Of a DNA stretch of 64,000 nucleotides, positions 41,803-50,768 are shown piece after piece. The position numbers and the translations under genes were made by a program. Source of the DNA: Desulfomicrobium orale DSM 12838 (GTDB taxonomy: Bacteria > Desulfobacterota > Desulfovibrionia > Desulfovibrionales > Desulfomicrobiaceae); assembly GCF_001553625.1 (NCBI RefSeq), contig NZ_CP014230.1, positions 930,001 to 994,000 on the forward strand, given 5' to 3'. The notes under the pieces are model-generated. The model saw nothing but the letters and a program-made list of their open reading frames with translations. It ran no database searches and was not told where the DNA came from. Each line of letters begins with the position of its first letter. Positions within the stretch are counted from its first letter, which is position 1.

Positions 41803-41837
41803 TCGTGGCGGAACAGAATTTCACAGTTCCGCCACGA
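41803..41837. terminator. Perfect hairpin between glgB and the convergent regulator
   Basis: Twelve-base arms (41803-41814 and 41826-41837) with an 11-base loop. It covers the regulator's stop codon and last codons. No T-run follows on either strand, so it is a hairpin that could stop or protect both transcripts rather than a textbook terminator. Confidence 0.5.
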
Positions 41838-42933
41838 TCCGTCCCGTTTCCCGGGCCTCGTAGCCGGGCAGGGACGCCAGATCCTCCCGCAGTTTGCGCG
41901 TTTGCAGGGTGTCCAGCAGGGCGGCCGCCTCGGGCAGAGCTTGCAGGTCCTTGGGTACGACCAGATCGCAGCGCACGGTTTCCAGCGGGATGAAGTCCAG
42001 GCCGTAGAATGCGGCGATGGCCCGAAATCCAAGCCCCACGTCGGCCTTGCCGAACAGGATGTGCAGGGCGCTTTCATGGTGGGTGCGGGCCTCCTGCCCG
42101 TAGCCGCTGATATCCTCCCCGCGCAGACCGTGCCGGAACAGATACTCGTCCAGCAGGCTGCGCAGGGCCGCGCCCGGCTCGCGGTTCACAAGCCGCGCCT
42201 GGCCGCCGGCCAGATCGGATATGGCCCGGAGCTTCAAGGGGTTGCCCGGCGCGACCATCAATCCCTCCTCGATATGCGAAAAAGTCACCACCGTGGCGGG
42301 CGTGCCTTCCAGCAGGCTTCTGGCCAGCAGGAGGTTGCCGGGACCGTGGGCTGTGTCGTGCATGTGCGTGCCCGCGAAATGGGCCTGTCCGGCGGCGAGT
42401 CTGACCAGGGCGTCGCGGCTGGAGGCGAAAAAGCAGTGCGCCCGGACCTGGGGGGCATGGCGCATGGTGTGCGTGCCCAGAATGGAAAAGGCCGGGTCGC
42501 AGCCGAAAATGATGAGGGTCTGGTCCAGGGTGCCCGCCGGGCTGAGCAGGCGGGCCGGGCCTCCTCCGGCGGCCATGACGCCGTCGGCCGGCTCGAAGCC
42601 GTTCAGAAAAAGCTGCCTGCCCGTGAGCGGATAGGCCATGACCCGGCCACGCATACGGGCCAGAGCCACGCGCGTGGGGCCCGTTTCCGCTTGGCCGATC
42701 AGGGTGGCGTCCGCTTCCGCGCCTATTTCTTCCGTGAACAGGTCTTCCACCGTGCAGCCCAGGCATTTGGCCAGCTTGAGGGCCAGGGCCGTGTTGGGCG
42801 TGTATTTCTCCGTTTCAATATCGTAGATGGCCTGGCGTTTGACGCCGGTCAGTTCCGCCAGATGAGCCTGGGACAGCCCCCTGTCCTGACGGATGGTCTT
42901 CAGGTTGCAGATCAGCTTGATGTCGGGGTTCAC
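41821..42933 (-). CDS. XRE-family regulator with molybdate-associated PBP-like domain
   Basis: A 370-residue regulator. The helix-turn-helix occupies residues ~10-67 (IRQDRGLSQAHLAELTGVKRQAIYDIE, in two parts). From ~95 comes a periplasmic-binding-protein-like domain, as found in molybdate-responsive proteins (PBP_like, PF12727 type): SGYGQEARTHHESALHILFGKADVGLGFRAIA in two parts is the signature. It likely senses a small anion. It is divergent from tonB, with a 205-base shared gap, so it probably controls the uptake cluster; direct evidence is absent. Confidence 0.82.
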   Translation of the reverse strand: MNPDIKLICNLKTIRQDRGLSQAHLAELTGVKRQAIYDIETEKYTPNTALALKLAKCLGCTVEDLFTEEIGAEADATLIGQAETGPTRVALARMRGRVMAYPLTGRQLFLNGFEPADGVMAAGGGPARLLSPAGTLDQTLIIFGCDPAFSILGTHTMRHAPQVRAHCFFASSRDALVRLAAGQAHFAGTHMHDTAHGPGNLLLARSLLEGTPATVVTFSHIEEGLMVAPGNPLKLRAISDLAGGQARLVNREPGAALRSLLDEYLFRHGLRGEDISGYGQEARTHHESALHILFGKADVGLGFRAIAAFYGLDFIPLETVRCDLVVPKDLQALPEAAALLDTLQTRKLREDLASLPGYEARETGRIVAEL

Positions 42934-43138
42934 CTTTCGCCTCCCTTTCGCCCGGCCGGGAGATTCCGGGACAGCGCATTGGCAGGGCCTGCGGGTTTCG
43001 GTTCGCGATGGTCCGGGGCTCCCATTGTCTTGACGGGAATGACGTGTATAAAATGAAAAGCGGATTTCATTGTGAGCTTTTCCGCTTTGCGGAAGTTTTT
43101 CGGGGTCACGTCGTCATATGGGTGCCAGCGGAGCGCTT
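42934..43138. promoter_or_regulatory. Shared regulatory region, regulator / tonB
   Basis: The gap contains a TGACGTGTATA element (43040-43050) also found before the receptor gene, immediately followed by AATGAAA-N6-TTTCATT (43052-43058, 43065-43071), and an overlapping AAAGCGGA/TCCGCTTT hairpin (43057-43064, 43081-43088). TTGTCT with TATAAA at 43047 could be a promoter with a short 15-base spacer. These are the best candidates for operator sites. Confidence 0.45.
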
Positions 43139-44143
43139 ATGACACAGCTTCCTGTTCCGGGAATCGAGGCCGAGGGCAAGCCTTTTTCGGCAGCCGGGCC
43201 CGGCAGTTTCGCCTTCGTTCAGCCGGGGGACTGCTCCAGTCCGGGGGAAAATGACGGCCAGCGGGTTTTTCCGGCGGGAAATTTCACTCTGCCCCGGATT
43301 TTATACATCATTTTGTCTCTGCTTGTGCATCTTGCTCTGATCGCCATGCCAGGCCCGCCGTCTGTATCCCGTTCTCAGGTCGTCATGGAACTTTCTCTGG
43401 TGGCAGGCCCACCCGGGCCGGAGCCCCAGGCTTCGGCACAAGGCGGAACCGGCAGCAATGCGCCTGCGCCGGAAATCGGACGGAAAGCCCCGGCTCAACC
43501 TCCCACAGTGAAGCAGGCGGTGGGAAAACTCGCTCCACAGCGGAGCCGGACAGCCGCTCCCAGCCGGGAAACCAATCAGGACCGGCAAAGAAGTAAGCCA
43601 CTCTCGCCGGCTCCCGTGACCCGGCCCGTTCGCCCTGTGCCTTCGGAAGAAGTCCGCCCCGCGCGGCTCATGGCGCCGCCCGTTGCTGAGCCACCCGCAC
43701 CGGCCGAAGCTGCTTCCGCCGATTCTTCCACATCTTCTACCGATGGTTCCGGCAATGCCCCGGTCGCCGCGATGAATGCTTCGGGCGTTCAGTCGTCCGG
43801 AAACGGAGCTTCCGGCTCCGGTTTAAGCCGTTTTGGAGGTCCAGGCGGCGGTCCGGCGTATGTCTTTGGCGAGGCGGGGGCGCCGGCCTTCCTGCGCCGG
43901 GTGGCGCCGAAATATCCGCGTTCATCCCTGGCCAGGCGGGAGCAGGGCGTGGTCATGCTGCTGCTCAGCCTGGACAGGCATGGCACCCTGCTGGATGTTT
44001 CCGTCATGCAAAGCGCCGGACCCAGGCTGGACGAGGCGGCCATCCAGGCCGCGCGGGCATCGAGCTATCTTCCGGCCACACGAAACGGCGAACCGCACGC
44101 CTGCACGGTCACTCTGCCCATTCGTTTCACCCTGCGGCAGTGA
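43139..44143 (+). CDS. tonB: TonB-family energy transducer
   Basis: A 334-residue TonB-like protein. Unusually, ~50 polar residues precede the membrane helix (about residues 53-72). A long Pro/Ala/Ser linker follows, then the C-terminal TonB domain from ~255: RVAPKYPRSSLARREQGVVML and an ending PIRFTLRQ. ATG 43139 has GGAG upstream; 43118 is an in-frame alternative. No exbB or exbD is nearby. It most likely energises the downstream receptor. Confidence 0.85.
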   Translation: MTQLPVPGIEAEGKPFSAAGPGSFAFVQPGDCSSPGENDGQRVFPAGNFTLPRILYIILSLLVHLALIAMPGPPSVSRSQVVMELSLVAGPPGPEPQASAQGGTGSNAPAPEIGRKAPAQPPTVKQAVGKLAPQRSRTAAPSRETNQDRQRSKPLSPAPVTRPVRPVPSEEVRPARLMAPPVAEPPAPAEAASADSSTSSTDGSGNAPVAAMNASGVQSSGNGASGSGLSRFGGPGGGPAYVFGEAGAPAFLRRVAPKYPRSSLARREQGVVMLLLSLDRHGTLLDVSVMQSAGPRLDEAAIQAARASSYLPATRNGEPHACTVTLPIRFTLRQ

Positions 44144-44164
44144 GCCCCGCCGGGTGCCCGATAT

Positions 44165-44202
44165 GTTTTTCCTGTAAGGGAAAGACATACCGTATTTTTT
44201 AA
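44165..44202 (+). terminator. Possible terminator between tonB and the receptor gene
   Basis: ATGTTTTTCC and GGAAAGACAT form a ten-base stem with one G-T pair around a short loop. A TATTTTTTAA stretch follows a few bases later. It would separate the tonB transcript from the receptor's own promoter region. Confidence 0.4.
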
Positions 44203-44210
44203 AATGTAAT

Positions 44211-44221
44211 TGACGTGTATA
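44211..44221 (+). promoter_or_regulatory. TGACGTGTATA element before the receptor gene
   Basis: Identical 11 bases to 43040-43050 before tonB. TTGACG at 44210-44215 could be a -35 element. The receptor start is 64 bases downstream. Candidate operator or promoter element for both units. Confidence 0.45.
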
Positions 44222-44285
44222 GATTATAGCTCTAGCGTACGCCCATTCAGACAACGCCGTTTGGACACAGACAAAGGAGGGGGAA

Positions 44286-46277
44286 ATGCGGAGCTTCTGG
44301 TTGTGCGGCGCATGTGTATTGCTGGCGGTCCTGTTCGGAGGTCCTGCTTTTGCCGCCGAAAAAGCGGGGGAAGGAGCCTTCAGGCTCGGCGAGATCGAGG
44401 TGGTGGAGCAGGCCGACGGCTCGCCCAATGTTTCGGTCCAGCGCGTGACTGAAGAAACCATGCGCACTTTCAACACCGACACCGTGGACAGGGCCGTGAA
44501 TCTGCTGCCGGGCGTGACCGTTTCCCATGTGGGTGCCCGCAACGAAAAAATGGTCTATGTACGCGGTTTCGACCTGAAGCATGTGCCTATCTACATGGAC
44601 GGCATTCCCATCTACGTGCCCTACGACGGCTATCCGGATCTGGGCCGCTTCACGACTTTCGATCTGGCCAACATCACCGTTTCCAAGGGTTTTGCCTCGG
44701 TGCTGCACGGCCCCAATACCATGGGCGGCGCCATCAACATGGTCTCCAAACGGCCGTCGGAAAAATTCGAGGCCGTCACCGGCCTGGGCGTGGGCTCATA
44801 CACGTACAACGGCTATCTGAACATGGGCACCAATCTGGGCCTGTGGTACGTGCAGGCCGGGCTGTCCCACCTGAACAGCGACGGCTTTCCCCTGTCCCGC
44901 TCCTTTGACTCCGTGCCCACGGAAAACGGCGGGCGGCGCAATAATTCATACCATCAGGACAGCAAGGGCAGCCTGAAGGTGGGTTTTACCCCCAACAGCA
45001 AGGACGAATACGCCCTGACCTACGCCAAGCAGCACGGTAAAAAGGGCACCCCGCCCTATGCCGGGGAGAGCGAGTCCATCTCGCCGCGTTACTGGAAATG
45101 GCCGTACTGGGACAGGGAGAGCGTGTATTTCAACTCCGAAACATGGTTCGGCGAGGACGTGTACGCCAAGACGCGTCTTTATTACGACGTGTTTGAAAAC
45201 GCCCTCGAAAGCTACGACGACGCTTCTTACTCCACCATGCGGAAGCGTTCATCCTTCAAGAGCGCCTACGATGACCATACTTACGGCGGCTCCGTGGAAC
45301 TCGGCCTGCTGGCCATCCCCCACAACGAACTCCGGCTGGCCGTGCATTTCAAGCGCGATTTCCACAAGGAGCTGGCTCCGAAGACCCCGGATGTCCATTT
45401 TCAGGAGGACATCTTCTCCGTGGGGCTGGAGGATACCATCAATTTCACGGACAGTTTCTACGCCATTGCCGGGGTAGGCTATGACCGCGTCAAAACCCGG
45501 GAGGCCGAAAATCTGGTGGGCAAGACGGTGACGGATTTTTCCAGGGGCAGCGCCGATGCCGTCAATCCGCAGCTGGGCCTTTTCTACAAGGTCGGCGAGG
45601 CGGGTCTGGCGCACGCCAGCGTGGCCCTGAAGTCGCGCATGCCGTCCATCAAGGACAAGTTCTCCTACCGCATGGGCCGGGCCATCCCCAATCCGGATCT
45701 CGATCCGGAACGGGCCGTCAACTACGAAATCGGCTACAAGCATTCCTTTGAGGAGCGCGTCACCGTGGAGGGCAATCTGTTCTACAGCGATGTGCGCGAC
45801 TACATTCTGTTCAAGACCGTGCCCGACCCGGACAACCCCGGAAAGCGCATCAGCCAGAACCAGAACATCGGCGAAGTGGACATGTACGGGCTGGAGCTGG
45901 GCGTGACCGCCCGCATTTTCGATCCCCTGCGGGGCGGTATCAACTACACTTGGCTGGAATACGAGAACCACACCAATGACGACGAACTGCTGGACACGCC
46001 CAGGCACAAGATTTTCGCCTTCCTCGAATACAGTCCCATGGAGCGGCTCTCGCTGCTGGCGGACATGGAATACAATTCCAAGCGCTACAGCTCCACGGAC
46101 GGCGAGCGGGTGGCCGACGGCTTCACGGTTTTCGGCCTCAAGGGCACATATGAGTTTCTGGACAAGAAATATCTGGAGCTGGGTCTCAACAACGCCTTCG
46201 ACGCCGATTACGAACTAAGCGAAGGCTATCCGCAGGCCGGGCGGACCTGGTTCGCCAACCTGCGCATGGAGTTTTAG
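44286..46277 (+). CDS. TonB-dependent outer-membrane receptor
   Basis: A 663-residue receptor. A signal peptide ends near GPAFAAEK. The likely TonB box is GEIEVVEQ. The plug domain spans ~45-160, with LLPGVTVSHVG, VYVRGFD and PIYMDGIPIYVPYDG. The rest is a 22-strand-type beta barrel ending in F. AAAGGAGGGGG precedes the start. The substrate is not evident: plug sequences resemble siderophore or metal receptors. Its neighbours (FmdE, class III binding protein) point to a metal complex. Confidence 0.92.
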   Translation: MRSFWLCGACVLLAVLFGGPAFAAEKAGEGAFRLGEIEVVEQADGSPNVSVQRVTEETMRTFNTDTVDRAVNLLPGVTVSHVGARNEKMVYVRGFDLKHVPIYMDGIPIYVPYDGYPDLGRFTTFDLANITVSKGFASVLHGPNTMGGAINMVSKRPSEKFEAVTGLGVGSYTYNGYLNMGTNLGLWYVQAGLSHLNSDGFPLSRSFDSVPTENGGRRNNSYHQDSKGSLKVGFTPNSKDEYALTYAKQHGKKGTPPYAGESESISPRYWKWPYWDRESVYFNSETWFGEDVYAKTRLYYDVFENALESYDDASYSTMRKRSSFKSAYDDHTYGGSVELGLLAIPHNELRLAVHFKRDFHKELAPKTPDVHFQEDIFSVGLEDTINFTDSFYAIAGVGYDRVKTREAENLVGKTVTDFSRGSADAVNPQLGLFYKVGEAGLAHASVALKSRMPSIKDKFSYRMGRAIPNPDLDPERAVNYEIGYKHSFEERVTVEGNLFYSDVRDYILFKTVPDPDNPGKRISQNQNIGEVDMYGLELGVTARIFDPLRGGINYTWLEYENHTNDDELLDTPRHKIFAFLEYSPMERLSLLADMEYNSKRYSSTDGERVADGFTVFGLKGTYEFLDKKYLELGLNNAFDADYELSEGYPQAGRTWFANLRMEF

Positions 46278-46412
46278 GCTGTGGCCCGGGCTTTCCGCTT
46301 ATCGTGCCCTCGCGGCGGCGCCGGTGTTTGTACGGCCGCCGCAGTGGTCCGGCCCTGTTCCACATTGCCGGAATTTTCCTTGCTTCACGGCGTGTTCCGG
46401 CGGGCGGATTAA

Positions 46413-47036
46413 ATGTACGATCATCCGGACAGTTTCGAGCGGTGCCTGGAAGACGCGGTGCGTTTTCACGGGCACCTTTGCGGAGGACAGATCATCGGCG
46501 TGCGCATGGCCCTGGCCGGTCTGCGGGAACTGGGCCTGCGCGATCCCAGAGGCGCGGACCGCAAAAAGCTGCTGGCCGTAGTGGAGATAGACCGCTGCGC
46601 CACGGACGCCATCATCTCCGTGACCGGACTTTCTCCGGGCAAGCGCAACCTGAAGATCAGGGATTTCGGTAAAATGGCCGCCACGTTTGTGGATTTGGAG
46701 GGGGATCGGGCCGTGCGGATCTGCGTGCGGGAGAGCTCCCGCCGCAAGGCCGACGAACTGGCCGCATCCCTCGCCGATGAGGACGACGCGGGAGACATGA
46801 AGGAGGCGCGGTTCAGAGCTCTGGAGGTCATGGATGAGGCGGATCTGCTGGAAATCCGGAAAGTGCGGGTCAGCTTGCACCCGAGCGACCTGCCGGGGCC
46901 GCCCTCGCGGAGCGTGGTCTGCGCCCGCTGCGGAGAGTCCGTACTGGACCAGCGCGAGGAGACGCATGGCGGGCAGACACTCTGCCGTCCCTGTGCCGCC
47001 GGAAAAACCTACTATGAACCGTGCCCGGCTCCGTGA
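46413..47036 (+). CDS. FmdE-family metal-binding protein
   Basis: A 207-residue protein of the formylmethanofuran-dehydrogenase subunit E-like family. The conserved FHGHLCGG motif holds His19, His21 and Cys23. EIDRCATDAI and GLSPGKRNLKIRDFGK follow. A C-terminal zinc ribbon has CARC (170-173) and CRPC (191-194). It lacks a signal, so it is cytoplasmic. The family sits beside molybdenum/tungsten or TonB uptake genes in anaerobes; its role is not proven. The 135 bases before it show no promoter, so it is likely read with the receptor. Confidence 0.88.
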   Translation: MYDHPDSFERCLEDAVRFHGHLCGGQIIGVRMALAGLRELGLRDPRGADRKKLLAVVEIDRCATDAIISVTGLSPGKRNLKIRDFGKMAATFVDLEGDRAVRICVRESSRRKADELAASLADEDDAGDMKEARFRALEVMDEADLLEIRKVRVSLHPSDLPGPPSRSVVCARCGESVLDQREETHGGQTLCRPCAAGKTYYEPCPAP

Positions 47037-47045
47037 GGTAGGCGC

Positions 47046-47921
47046 ATGAGTTTCAAAGCCGGGGCGGAACTCCGCGAAAGGACGGAGAACATGGATTATC
47101 AGCATCTTGACTGGAATCAGATCTGGCGCACGCACCATGCGCGGAAAATGCTGCATGAGCGGCGCGGTCCCGGCCACTGGGACAAGCGGGCCAAGGATTT
47201 CACCAGGGCCGTGGCCCGTGGCGACTATGTGGAGCAGTTTCTGGACATCTGCCGGATTCTGCCCGGAGAGACGGTGCTGGATGTCGGTGCGGCCGCCGGG
47301 ACCTTGGCCGTGCCTCTGGCGTCGCGTGCCGCTTCCGTCACCGCCCTGGAGCCCTCGAAGGTCATGCGGGAACTGCTGGCGGAACGCTGCCGGGACGGCG
47401 GCATCGGGAACGTGCGCATCGTCAACGGCCGCTGGGAGGACGACTGGCCGGCTCTGGACATTGAAGCGCACGACGTGACCATCGCCTCGCGGTCCCTCAT
47501 TGTGGACGATCTGGCCATGGCTGTGGACAAGCTGCGGCGCCATACCCGCCGCCGGGCGTACATCACCACGCTGGTTGGCGACGGCCCCTTTGACCGCGGC
47601 CTGATCGCCGGAGCCGGACGGGAGTTCACGCCCGGCCTCGATTACATCGTGGTACTCAATTACCTGCGCCAGATCGGCATCTTCGCCCAGCTGACCTTCA
47701 CCACGCATCACGAAGCCCGGATTTTTCCCACGCTGGACGAGGCCGTGGAGGGTCTGTCCTGGATGGTGCACGACATTACCGCGGAAGAAAAAATCCGCCT
47801 GCGGGAATATCTGGACGGCGCGCTGGTCCGGGAAAACGGAATGCTGCGGCTGCCCACGCGGCCCGTGCGCTGGGCCGTGCTGTGGTGGGACGAGGAGGGA
47901 CCATGCGGACAGGAGGCCTGA
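47046..47921 (+). CDS. Class I SAM-dependent methyltransferase in the uptake cluster
   Basis: A 291-residue methyltransferase. The AdoMet motif is VLDVGAAAGTLAVPL near residue 80, then VTALEPSKVMRELL. The first ~40 residues are a charged extension. GAGGTAGG precedes ATG 47046; ATG 47091 is a reasonable alternative. Its end overlaps the next gene by 19 bases. Substrate unknown. It might modify a metallophore or cofactor. Confidence 0.8.
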   Translation: MSFKAGAELRERTENMDYQHLDWNQIWRTHHARKMLHERRGPGHWDKRAKDFTRAVARGDYVEQFLDICRILPGETVLDVGAAAGTLAVPLASRAASVTALEPSKVMRELLAERCRDGGIGNVRIVNGRWEDDWPALDIEAHDVTIASRSLIVDDLAMAVDKLRRHTRRRAYITTLVGDGPFDRGLIAGAGREFTPGLDYIVVLNYLRQIGIFAQLTFTTHHEARIFPTLDEAVEGLSWMVHDITAEEKIRLREYLDGALVRENGMLRLPTRPVRWAVLWWDEEGPCGQEA

Positions 47922-48946
47922 GGACCTGCGGGCTGCTTTTTTTCGTGCTTCTGTTCTGGGGCGGGCCGTTGTCCGTTCCGGCGGCGGAAATCACGGACAT
48001 GGCCGGGCGTACGGTGCTTCTGCCGGACAGAGAACCCAGGATATTCTGTGCCTCGCCTCCGTCTCTCTACCTGCTCTACTCTCTGGACCCGTCCCTTGCC
48101 GCCGGGCTCAATTTTCCCCTGAACGAGCGCGAAAAAAAGTACCTGCGCCCGGATTTCGCCCGGTTGCCCGTGCTGGGCGGATGGTTCGGCCAGGGCCGGA
48201 CGCCGAATCTGGAGACGCTTCTGACCGTGCGCCCAGATTTCATCCTGGCTTGGTATTCGGTGCGCGGCGCTGCCAACGACGTCATCGAGAACATGGGGCG
48301 GACCTTGGGCATTCCCGTGGTCTATGTGCGGCTGGATACGCTCAGGCAATATGCCGAAGCCTTCGAGTTTCTGGGGCGCGTCCTGAAGCGGGAGGAACGG
48401 GGCGCGGCTCTGGCCAGGGAAACCCGGCGCATACTGGACGAGGTGGAGCCCGTGCTGGCGGGCATCCCGGAAGAGGGGCGCGTTTCCGTTTATTACGCCC
48501 AGGGGCTGGACGGCCTGAAGACCGAGTGCGACACGTCGGTGCACGCGGAGCTGATCAATCTGGCCGGAGGCCGCAACATTCATTCCTGCCAGGCCCGAAG
48601 CGGCTTCGGTATGGAGCCTGTGACCCTGGAGGAAGTGCTTCTGGGCGAGCCCGAAGTCATCCTGGCCAAGGAGGAGGCGTTTTTCCGCTCCGTGCGGGAA
48701 AACCCGGCCTGGAGCCAGGTCCGGGCCGTGCGCGACGGACGGGTGCTGCTCATTCCGTCCTCGCCCTTCAACTGGTTCGACCGGCCGCCGTCTTTCATGC
48801 GCATTCTGGGTCTGTGCTGGCTGACAAAGGAGCTTCATCCCGGCCGCTACTCCAAGGACTTGGTGGCGGAAACAAAATCTTTCTACCGTCTGTTTCTGGG
48901 CGTGGAGCTGGATGACGACGCGGCCTGGGCGGTGATCGGCCCATGA
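47903..48946 (+). CDS. Class III (FecB/BtuF-like) periplasmic binding protein
   Basis: A 347-residue binding protein of the ABC metal/cofactor uptake type. A signal peptide ends near VPAAEI. ITDMAGRTVLLP begins the mature lobe, and TLLTVRPDFILAW and GFGMEPVTLEEVLLGEPEVIL are family segments. The C-terminal FNWFDRPPSFMRILGLCWL is common in iron-complex or molybdate (MolA-like) members. ATG 47903 has GAGGAGGG upstream. It overlaps the methyltransferase and the permease. Confidence 0.88.
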   Translation: MRTGGLRTCGLLFFVLLFWGGPLSVPAAEITDMAGRTVLLPDREPRIFCASPPSLYLLYSLDPSLAAGLNFPLNEREKKYLRPDFARLPVLGGWFGQGRTPNLETLLTVRPDFILAWYSVRGAANDVIENMGRTLGIPVVYVRLDTLRQYAEAFEFLGRVLKREERGAALARETRRILDEVEPVLAGIPEEGRVSVYYAQGLDGLKTECDTSVHAELINLAGGRNIHSCQARSGFGMEPVTLEEVLLGEPEVILAKEEAFFRSVRENPAWSQVRAVRDGRVLLIPSSPFNWFDRPPSFMRILGLCWLTKELHPGRYSKDLVAETKSFYRLFLGVELDDDAAWAVIGP

Positions 48947-49944
48947 GAGCGCGGGCGTATGTGTCGGCGCTGTTTTTTCTGCTTTGCGCCGCAGCTCTGG
49001 GCTCGCTGACCCTGGGCCGCTATCCTGTCGGCATGGCCGATCTGGCCGGATTTCTGGGCCTTGGTCCGGACATGGACCCGGACCGGATGCGCCTGACCCG
49101 CACCCTCATCCTGGATATCCGTCTGCCGCGCATTCTGGCGGCCGTTTGTGTCGGGGCCTCTCTGGCCGCTTCAGGAAGCGCGTTTCAGGCCATGTTCGTC
49201 AATCCGCTGGTATCCCCCGGCCTGCTGGGTGTCCTTTCCGGCGCGTCGCTGGGCGCGGCCCTGGGGATGCTCTTTTCCATCCGCTGGTTCGTGGTGCAGT
49301 TCAGCACTTTCGTCTTCGGCCTGCTGGCCGTGGGGCTGGCCATGCTCATGGCTCGCATGTACCGGGGCGACCGCCTGCTTCTGCTGGTCTTGAGCGGCAT
49401 CGTGGTCTCGGCCCTGTTCACGGCCCTGCTGTCTCTGGTCAAATACATGGCCGATCCGTATGATCAGCTTCCGGCCATCACCTACTGGCTCATGGGCGGT
49501 TTTTCCCTGATCGACCGGGAATCCATACTGCTCATGGGGCCCCTCATGCTGCTTGGCATCGGCGTGATGCTGAGCCTTTCGGGTTATCTGAACGTCCTGA
49601 CCATGGGTGACGAGGAGGCCCGGGCTCTGGGCGTGCGGGTGACGCTGGTCAGGACCGTGCTCATCCTCGCGGCCACGCTGGTCAGCAGTCTGACCGTGGC
49701 GGCGGGCGGGGTCATCGGCTGGGTGGGGCTCATCATACCACATGTGGGGCGCATGCTGGTGGGGCCGGACAACCGCGTGCTCCTGCCCGTTTCGGTTCTG
49801 CTCGGAGCCATTTATCTCCTTGTCATGGACAATCTGTCCCGGCTGATTTTTCCGGTGGAAATTCCTCTGGGCATCCTGACCGCCATTCTGGGCATCCCGG
49901 TGTTCGCCGCGGCCCTGCGTTCCAGCCGGGGCGGGTGGAGCTGA
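48943..49944 (+). CDS. FecCD/BtuC-type ABC permease
   Basis: A 333-residue permease with about ten membrane helices. Signatures are GASLAASGSAFQAMFVNPLVSPGLLG (in parts) and VAAGGVIGWVGLIIPHVGRMLVG, with the ATPase-contact helix. ATGA overlap with the binding-protein stop; TGATG overlap with the ATPase. Confidence 0.94.
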   Translation: MRARAYVSALFFLLCAAALGSLTLGRYPVGMADLAGFLGLGPDMDPDRMRLTRTLILDIRLPRILAAVCVGASLAASGSAFQAMFVNPLVSPGLLGVLSGASLGAALGMLFSIRWFVVQFSTFVFGLLAVGLAMLMARMYRGDRLLLLVLSGIVVSALFTALLSLVKYMADPYDQLPAITYWLMGGFSLIDRESILLMGPLMLLGIGVMLSLSGYLNVLTMGDEEARALGVRVTLVRTVLILAATLVSSLTVAAGGVIGWVGLIIPHVGRMLVGPDNRVLLPVSVLLGAIYLLVMDNLSRLIFPVEIPLGILTAILGIPVFAAALRSSRGGWS

Positions 49945-50768
49945 TGGAGAAGCTTTCCGCCCGGTCCGTGCATTTCGGCTATGCCGCCCATGCCGTGCTG
50001 CACGATGTGTCTTTGGCCGTGCATGAAGGGGAAGTCTTTTGCCTGCTGGGACCCAACGGCAGTGGAAAAACATCGCTGCTCAAGATTTTTCTGGGCCTGC
50101 TCCGGCCCCGGTCCGGCTTTGTGCTGGCGGAAGGCAGGCCCGTGGAAGTCTGGAGTCCGAAGGAACTGGCCCGGCAGGTGGCCTATGTTCCGCAACTGCA
50201 CCGCATGGCCTTTGCCTACCGCGTGCTGGACGTGGTGCTCATGGGCCGCATGGCCCACAGCGGGCTGTTCGGCAGGATGCGCGGAGAAGATGAGACTGCG
50301 GCGCGGGAGGCTCTGGAGCGGCTGGATATCGGGCATCTGGCGGCGAAGAGTTACGCGGAGATAAGCGGCGGGGAGCGGCAGCTGACCCTCATCGCCCGGG
50401 CTCTGGCCCAGGGGGCCAAAACCCTGGTCATGGACGAGCCCCTGAACGGACTGGATTACGGCAATCAGCTCCGCGTGCTGGAGCGCATCACTCATCTCGC
50501 CGCCGAAGGCTACGCCATCCTCAAGACCACCCACTTTCCCGACCACGCCCTGTGGATGGCCTCGAAGGTCGCACTGTTGCGCCAGGGCCGTATCGCCGCC
50601 TGCGGCCCGCCCGCCGAGGTCATGACCTCGCGTATGCTGAGCGAACTCTACCAGGCCGACATCCGCCTCGCTCCGGTGAGTCCAGAACTTCGCGTCTGTC
50701 TGCCCCTGTCCGTGCTGGAGCAGGAAACCTCTCTGGTTTCGCCGGGGCGGAACCTGTGTGCAGGATAG
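49944..50768 (+). CDS. FecE/BtuD-type ABC ATPase
   Basis: A 274-residue ATPase that powers the permease. Walker A is GPNGSGKT, signature ISGGERQ, Walker B TLVMDEPLNGLD, H-loop TTHFPDHA. ATG 49944 overlaps the permease stop by one base. Last gene of the cluster. The last ~35 residues after LYQADI are an extension. Confidence 0.94.
   Translation: MEKLSARSVHFGYAAHAVLHDVSLAVHEGEVFCLLGPNGSGKTSLLKIFLGLLRPRSGFVLAEGRPVEVWSPKELARQVAYVPQLHRMAFAYRVLDVVLMGRMAHSGLFGRMRGEDETAAREALERLDIGHLAAKSYAEISGGERQLTLIARALAQGAKTLVMDEPLNGLDYGNQLRVLERITHLAAEGYAILKTTHFPDHALWMASKVALLRQGRIAACGPPAEVMTSRMLSELYQADIRLAPVSPELRVCLPLSVLEQETSLVSPGRNLCAG

Follow-up and report, generated by a model that had tools for sequence, protein, structure and literature searches.

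The question raised by this locus was which substrate is imported where a TonB-dependent receptor and a class III ABC transporter are encoded beside an FmdE-family protein, a methyltransferase and a divergent regulator. The evidence presented here indicates that the cluster is probably a metal-regulated route by which molybdenum and/or tungsten are taken up across both membranes. The window analysed is a 64-kb stretch (bases 930001–994000) of the 2.78-Mb, single-contig genome of Desulfomicrobium orale DSM 12838, an oral bacterium whose gene content resembles that of sulfate reducers. Within it the cluster consists of eight open reading frames with Pfam matches, numbered from the first base of the window:

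41821–42933, minus strand: regulator with an HTH_3 (Cro/C1-type helix-turn-helix) domain and a PBP_like (PF12727) sensor-like domain
43118–44143, plus strand: tonB, energy transducer (TonB_C, 69 bits); translation may in fact begin 3' of the ATG given here
44286–46277, plus strand: TonB-dependent outer-membrane receptor with plug and barrel
46413–47036, plus strand: FmdE-family protein with an FHGHLC (FHGHxC) motif and a C-terminal CxxC...CxxC zinc finger
47046–47921, plus strand: class I SAM-dependent methyltransferase of a cluster-specific family
47882–48946, plus strand: periplasmic substrate-binding protein (SBP), Peripla_BP_2 / TroA-like, probably starting at the ATG at 47903
48943–49944, plus strand: FecCD/BtuC-type permease
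49935–50768, plus strand: ABC transporter ATPase, FecE/BtuD-like

The gene content reported by the first-pass annotation was confirmed in full, all eight frames being found in place and on the expected strand with matches past curated cut-offs. The regulator, which is divergent from tonB, matched PBP_like at 182 bits (cut-off 27) and HTH_3 at 48 bits (cut-off 23), and the receptor matched the TonB_dep_Rec barrel at 139 bits and the Plug domain at 68 bits. The description of an FmdE-like zinc protein proved apt (FmdE, 114 bits; DksA/TraR-type zinc finger, 31 bits), as did that of a class III transporter; scores for the remaining proteins were 36 bits for Methyltransf_25, 60 for Peripla_BP_2, 263 for FecCD and 103 for ABC_tran. 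The components of TonB-dependent uptake (a receptor with plug and barrel, and an encoded TonB) were therefore present, together with those of a class III (FecBCD/BtuCDF-type) importer in one operon, i.e., a Peripla_BP_2 SBP, a FecCD permease and an ATPase. Gaps of 142 bp and 135 bp separate tonB from the receptor and the receptor from fmdE; from fmdE to the ATPase gene (46413–50768) neighbouring genes overlap or almost abut, and so look like a single transcription unit.

Chance grouping of these genes, an objection that the first-pass annotation had raised against its own reading, was excluded by their distribution in relatives. Genome G129 (L069), from another family of the same taxonomic order, carried the complete set: a divergent regulator, then receptor, FmdE, methyltransferase, SBP, permease, ATPase and TonB, followed by ExbB and ExbD. 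These proteins were 48–60% identical to those of D. orale, and TonB was 41% identical. The cluster was also present, split over two contigs, in a near relative (G039), and more distant versions occurred in several genomes of the Desulfovibrionaceae genus g12. A phylum-wide search with the SBP added 22 further genomes, three of them from the same taxonomic order; in these neighbourhoods the receptor, FmdE, methyltransferase, permease and ATPase recurred in changing gene order, often with DUF364 proteins. The grouping is kept across the Desulfovibrionales and in other families of the phylum.

Several observations concerned individual members of the cluster. A MAG contig labelled 'Pseudomonadota bacterium isolate S15M_Sa_55' encoded a protein with 97% identity to the cluster methyltransferase. 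Close methyltransferase homologues (47–48%) were found in genus g33 (L071:9031-9864, L072:9694-10509 and L070:766-1605) with no adjoining ABC transporter; one adjoined a CdhD-like corrinoid-protein fragment and two adjoined MFS transporters. A fold search with the methyltransferase did not point to a substrate: its top matches, TmtA/GtmA (thiol S-methyltransferases; Z about 18), were level with UbiG, ChlM and further proteins. The idea that in-frame TGA codons near FmdE homologues encode selenocysteine was discarded, the stops falling behind the gene at the one locus inspected. The cluster in G581 contained, between FmdE and TonB, a 163-aa protein with a marginal PF00174 molybdopterin-binding oxidoreductase domain (L207:6858-7346), and a short protein resembling it was present in the G543 cluster (L206:5417-5908).

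Among the relatives, the cluster was repeatedly linked to molybdate transport genes. In G644 the receptor, FmdE, SBP, permease, ATPase, ModE, ModD, ModA, ModB and ModC were all encoded on the same strand (ModE-ModD-ModABC at L208:11400-15714). In G398 modCBA was divergent from the cluster receptor; modCBA was likewise divergent in G498, where it occurred with the regulator, an SBP and a permease; a ModB fragment was divergent from the cluster at a contig end in G582; and G129, G543 and G581 had a regulator homologue inside the cluster. When ModA, ModB, ModE or the regulator was counted as a molybdenum marker, 8 of 22 loci had one beside the cluster, compared with 0 of 21 control loci, these being other loci fetched identically (Fisher, p = 0.0036); roughly two in three cluster loci had no marker within the fetched stretch. 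In the SBP tree the marker-positive loci were scattered over several distinct branches, and the mod linkage is therefore not a single inherited accident.

The regulator provided a second connection to molybdate transport. Its 'molybdate-associated domain', as it had been called, was fairly named: PF12727 is found fused to MoeA and in TaoR-type regulators, and is a putative sensor here. The nearest homologues outside its own cluster type were full-length proteins (44–46% identity) encoded divergently from modABC in G291, G247 and G209, with NCBIfam equivalog cut-offs passed; a further homologue, in G255, was divergent from a modABC assigned by similarity, and in G019 a 72% homologue adjoined a ModB-like gene and a ModC-like ATPase (ModC match below cut-off). 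The TOBE/Mop domain of ModE was absent from the regulator (Pfam, E 0.01). A combination of helix-turn-helix and PBP-like domain, and linkage to molybdate transport genes, is shared with the TaoR family of Mo/W regulators, reportedly described by Rajeev et al. in 2019 (doi 10.1111/1462-2920.14500, as cited in PMC11980592). However, TaoR-like proteins carry an HTH_17 (excisionase-type) DNA-binding domain, according to the available part of PMC11980592, whereas that of the regulator is HTH_3. The protein is consequently not a TaoR member, being alike only in layout, and its domain content suggests that HTH_3 plus PBP_like constitutes a separate type of regulator.

A candidate operator connected the regulator with both sets of promoters. 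The modA promoters of G291 and G209 contained the perfect palindromes TGACGTGTTTACACGTCA and TGACGTTTTTAAACGTCA, with the general form TGACGTKTTTAMACGTCA. The 11-mer TGACGTGTATA is a related half-site, and its exact sequence occurred only twice in the D. orale genome, both times inside the cluster:

43040–43050, plus strand: candidate operator TGACGTGTATA, exact 11-mer, between the regulator and tonB
44211–44221, plus strand: second exact copy of TGACGTGTATA, 5' of the receptor, overlapping a TTGACG -35-like element

A consensus was built from the G291 and G209 modA sites alone and scored against dinucleotide shuffles. It identified sites before receptors or tonB in D. orale, G129, G543 and G019 (combined p = 8e-6, or 3e-5 after dropping related cases), while six control promoters gave a combined p of 0.17. 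The two D. orale operators had a degenerate right half (single-site p = 0.018 and 0.156). Conservation of operator sites, suggested earlier as a check, was seen in part: it held for the receptor or tonB promoters of G129, G543 and G019, but G498, G247 and G255 yielded no convincing site. Direct reading of the G543 and G129 sequences placed the site at, or between, well-formed -35 and -10 boxes (TTGACT-17-TATGAT and TTGACG-17-TATGAT), a position suited to a repressor. A search of eight genomes for further operators (18-mer, up to three mismatches) produced matches no commoner than those of a reversed control pattern, and the inspected matches outside the cluster and modA promoters fell inside genes. 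The motif is common to modA and receptor promoters and is the candidate binding site of the regulator. The original proposal, that Mo/W or a metal complex enters by a TonB-dependent route, had drawn on family names alone; regulators adjoining modABC, the operator common to modA and receptor promoters, and linkage to mod genes and modE in several families support it independently of those names.

Some doubt on the metal came from the transporter, because the nearest folds of the SBP were mixed and the genome has no strong FecCD permease other than the one in the cluster. The SBP model matched the molybdate-binding MolA (3psa) with Z 27.5 over 296 residues (rmsd 2.9, 23% identity). MolA was its fourth structural neighbour, preceded by two proteins without proven ligand and by the 39%-identical Sulfurospirillum protein 4pag, which has no assigned ligand. 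Other close folds were YiuA (iron/siderophore; Z 25.6), CeuE (nickel-binding; Z 24) and TM0189. Resemblance to these three as well as to MolA would suit a system in which the receptor and FecBCD-type importer take up iron-siderophore or haem and the link to molybdenum genes is secondary; the sole strong permease is a reason to retain iron, haem and cobalamin as options. Weak matches of the receptor to siderophore, haem and B12 subfamily models also fit such a system, but every one was below cut-off. In a Geobacteraceae MAG (L038:2218-3930), the methyltransferase and two SBP copies flanked a 570-aa protein whose C-terminal part is an esterase domain of PF00756; siderophore esterases are among the members of this family, which counts towards iron, and the esterase may be a hint of an organic ligand. 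Across three intergenic stretches, however, the best Fur box reached 11/19, and a second scoring gave 11/18, a value equalled by 8 of 100 shuffles. With this result, and with modABC, ModE, ModD and the modA-linked regulator recurring beside the cluster, iron or haem uptake is improbable.

Import of cobalamin or another corrinoid, or of cobalt or nickel, appears more improbable still. BtuC and corrinoid ATPase models were among the best matches of the permease and ATPase, and the methyltransferase weakly matched CbiT and CpaM, but all of these scores were far below curated cut-offs. No cobalamin riboswitch was found in the 64-kb window, where only a tRNA reached the Rfam gathering score, and NikR, Zur and ModE boxes did not exceed chance in the three intergenic stretches; the same mod linkage argues against these substrates also. 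On balance, iron, haem and cobalamin are less likely substrates than molybdenum or tungsten.

The host encodes ModABC components elsewhere. The sole copy of modA lies about 550 bp past the window end, on the minus strand (genome 994532-995358; L162:9531-10358), with no adjoining modB or modC; modB and an adjoining ATPase gene (ModC) are found at about 1.982–1.984 Mb (L177), about 1 Mb from modA. ModA itself is assigned to genome positions 994546-995190. The genome has three molybdopterin oxidoreductases, one of which has a TGA codon within its frame, the arrangement known from selenocysteine formate dehydrogenases. A second FmdE domain was observed in a 569-aa open frame (L001, genome 2433496-2433873), outside any recognised transporter cluster. 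The cluster is probably an extra Mo/W route beside ModA, ModB and ModC. Similarity of the SBP to MolA, and the occurrence of ModE and ModABC in the same gene run in G644, could indicate that this route takes up free molybdate or tungstate redundantly, in the manner of MolBCA, with an accessory receptor and no complexing ligand. This was considered unlikely: free oxyanions normally cross the outer membrane through porins, and it would be wasteful to keep a TonB and receptor specially for them; the conserved presence of a methyltransferase, FmdE and DUF364 as partners also suggests that a ligand is handled.

A complexed metal, organic or thio-ligated, would be the more likely substrate, because ModABC already serves free molybdate, which can do without TonB; only scarce or bulky ligands call for TonB-driven import. 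Thiomolybdate, to which molybdate converts, is expected in sulfidic habitats. The proposed mechanism, for which the gene content and promoters are the guide, is as follows. The receptor (44286–46277), energised by its own TonB, would carry a Mo/W species over the outer membrane, and the TroA-like SBP would pass it to the FecCD/ATPase importer. FmdE and the methyltransferase would act in the cytoplasm on the complex or the released metal. The divergent regulator would most likely sense intracellular Mo/W, as oxyanion or Mo-pterin, and when metal is plentiful would act through TGACGT-type operators overlapping the promoters to repress tonB and the receptor operon, and perhaps its own gene. The fullest form of this model, put forward tentatively and at slightly less than an even chance, is a dedicated TonB-dependent import of a metallophore-bound or thiomolybdate-like Mo/W complex, released or modified by FmdE, the methyltransferase and (in relatives) DUF364, under an HTH_3 plus PBP_like repressor that would control modABC in other genera. 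Most FmdE (PF02663) genes lie next to transporters of metal ions (PMC2954224), and an association of DUF364 with ABC transporters and with Mo/W/V/Fe genes has been noted (PMC2954201); this agrees, short of proof, with roles in Mo/W handling, and the available parts of these papers define no TonB-receptor system, regulator or operator.

To our knowledge, hardly anything is known of how scarce Mo/W passes the outer membrane. The one route found in the literature consulted is that of secreted ModA in Pseudomonas aeruginosa (T6SS-ModA-IcmP; PMC8602904), which likewise provides an outer-membrane step for molybdate, but IcmP is a metalloproteinase of the outer membrane that partners ModA, with no TonB receptor or FecBCD system. 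MolBCA (HI1470-1472) of Haemophilus influenzae, a FecBCD-type molybdate/tungstate importer, shares the transporter class, and the SBP model aligns to its MolA; the present cluster differs in adding its own TonB, receptor, FmdE, methyltransferase and HTH_3 plus PBP_like regulator, and its SBP ligand is predicted. The ModE regulons of delta-proteobacteria (PMC545781) similarly place modABC under a Mo-linked regulator, but the operator TGACGTKTTTAMACGTCA is unlike both ModE motifs of that study (CGGTCACG-N14-CGTGACCG and the E. coli type), neither of which was found in the cluster promoters, and its table of ModE sites lists no receptor or FecBCD operon. No TonB-dependent molybdenum system was found in openly licensed literature, and a 2024 review of TonB-dependent transporters mentions neither molybdenum nor tungsten. 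Each protein family, FecBCD-type molybdate import and PBP_like Mo/W regulators are already known; within the literature searched, the new elements are a putative TonB-receptor Mo/W system conserved as a unit, its HTH_3 plus PBP_like regulator and the operator shared with modA.

For mod operons without a ModE signal, a point raised in PMC545781, these results offer a candidate regulator together with a candidate binding site. FmdE and DUF364, families without assigned function, would gain a testable role in Mo/W acquisition. The greatest benefit of such a route would fall to anaerobes of sulfidic places, where molybdate becomes thiomolybdate.
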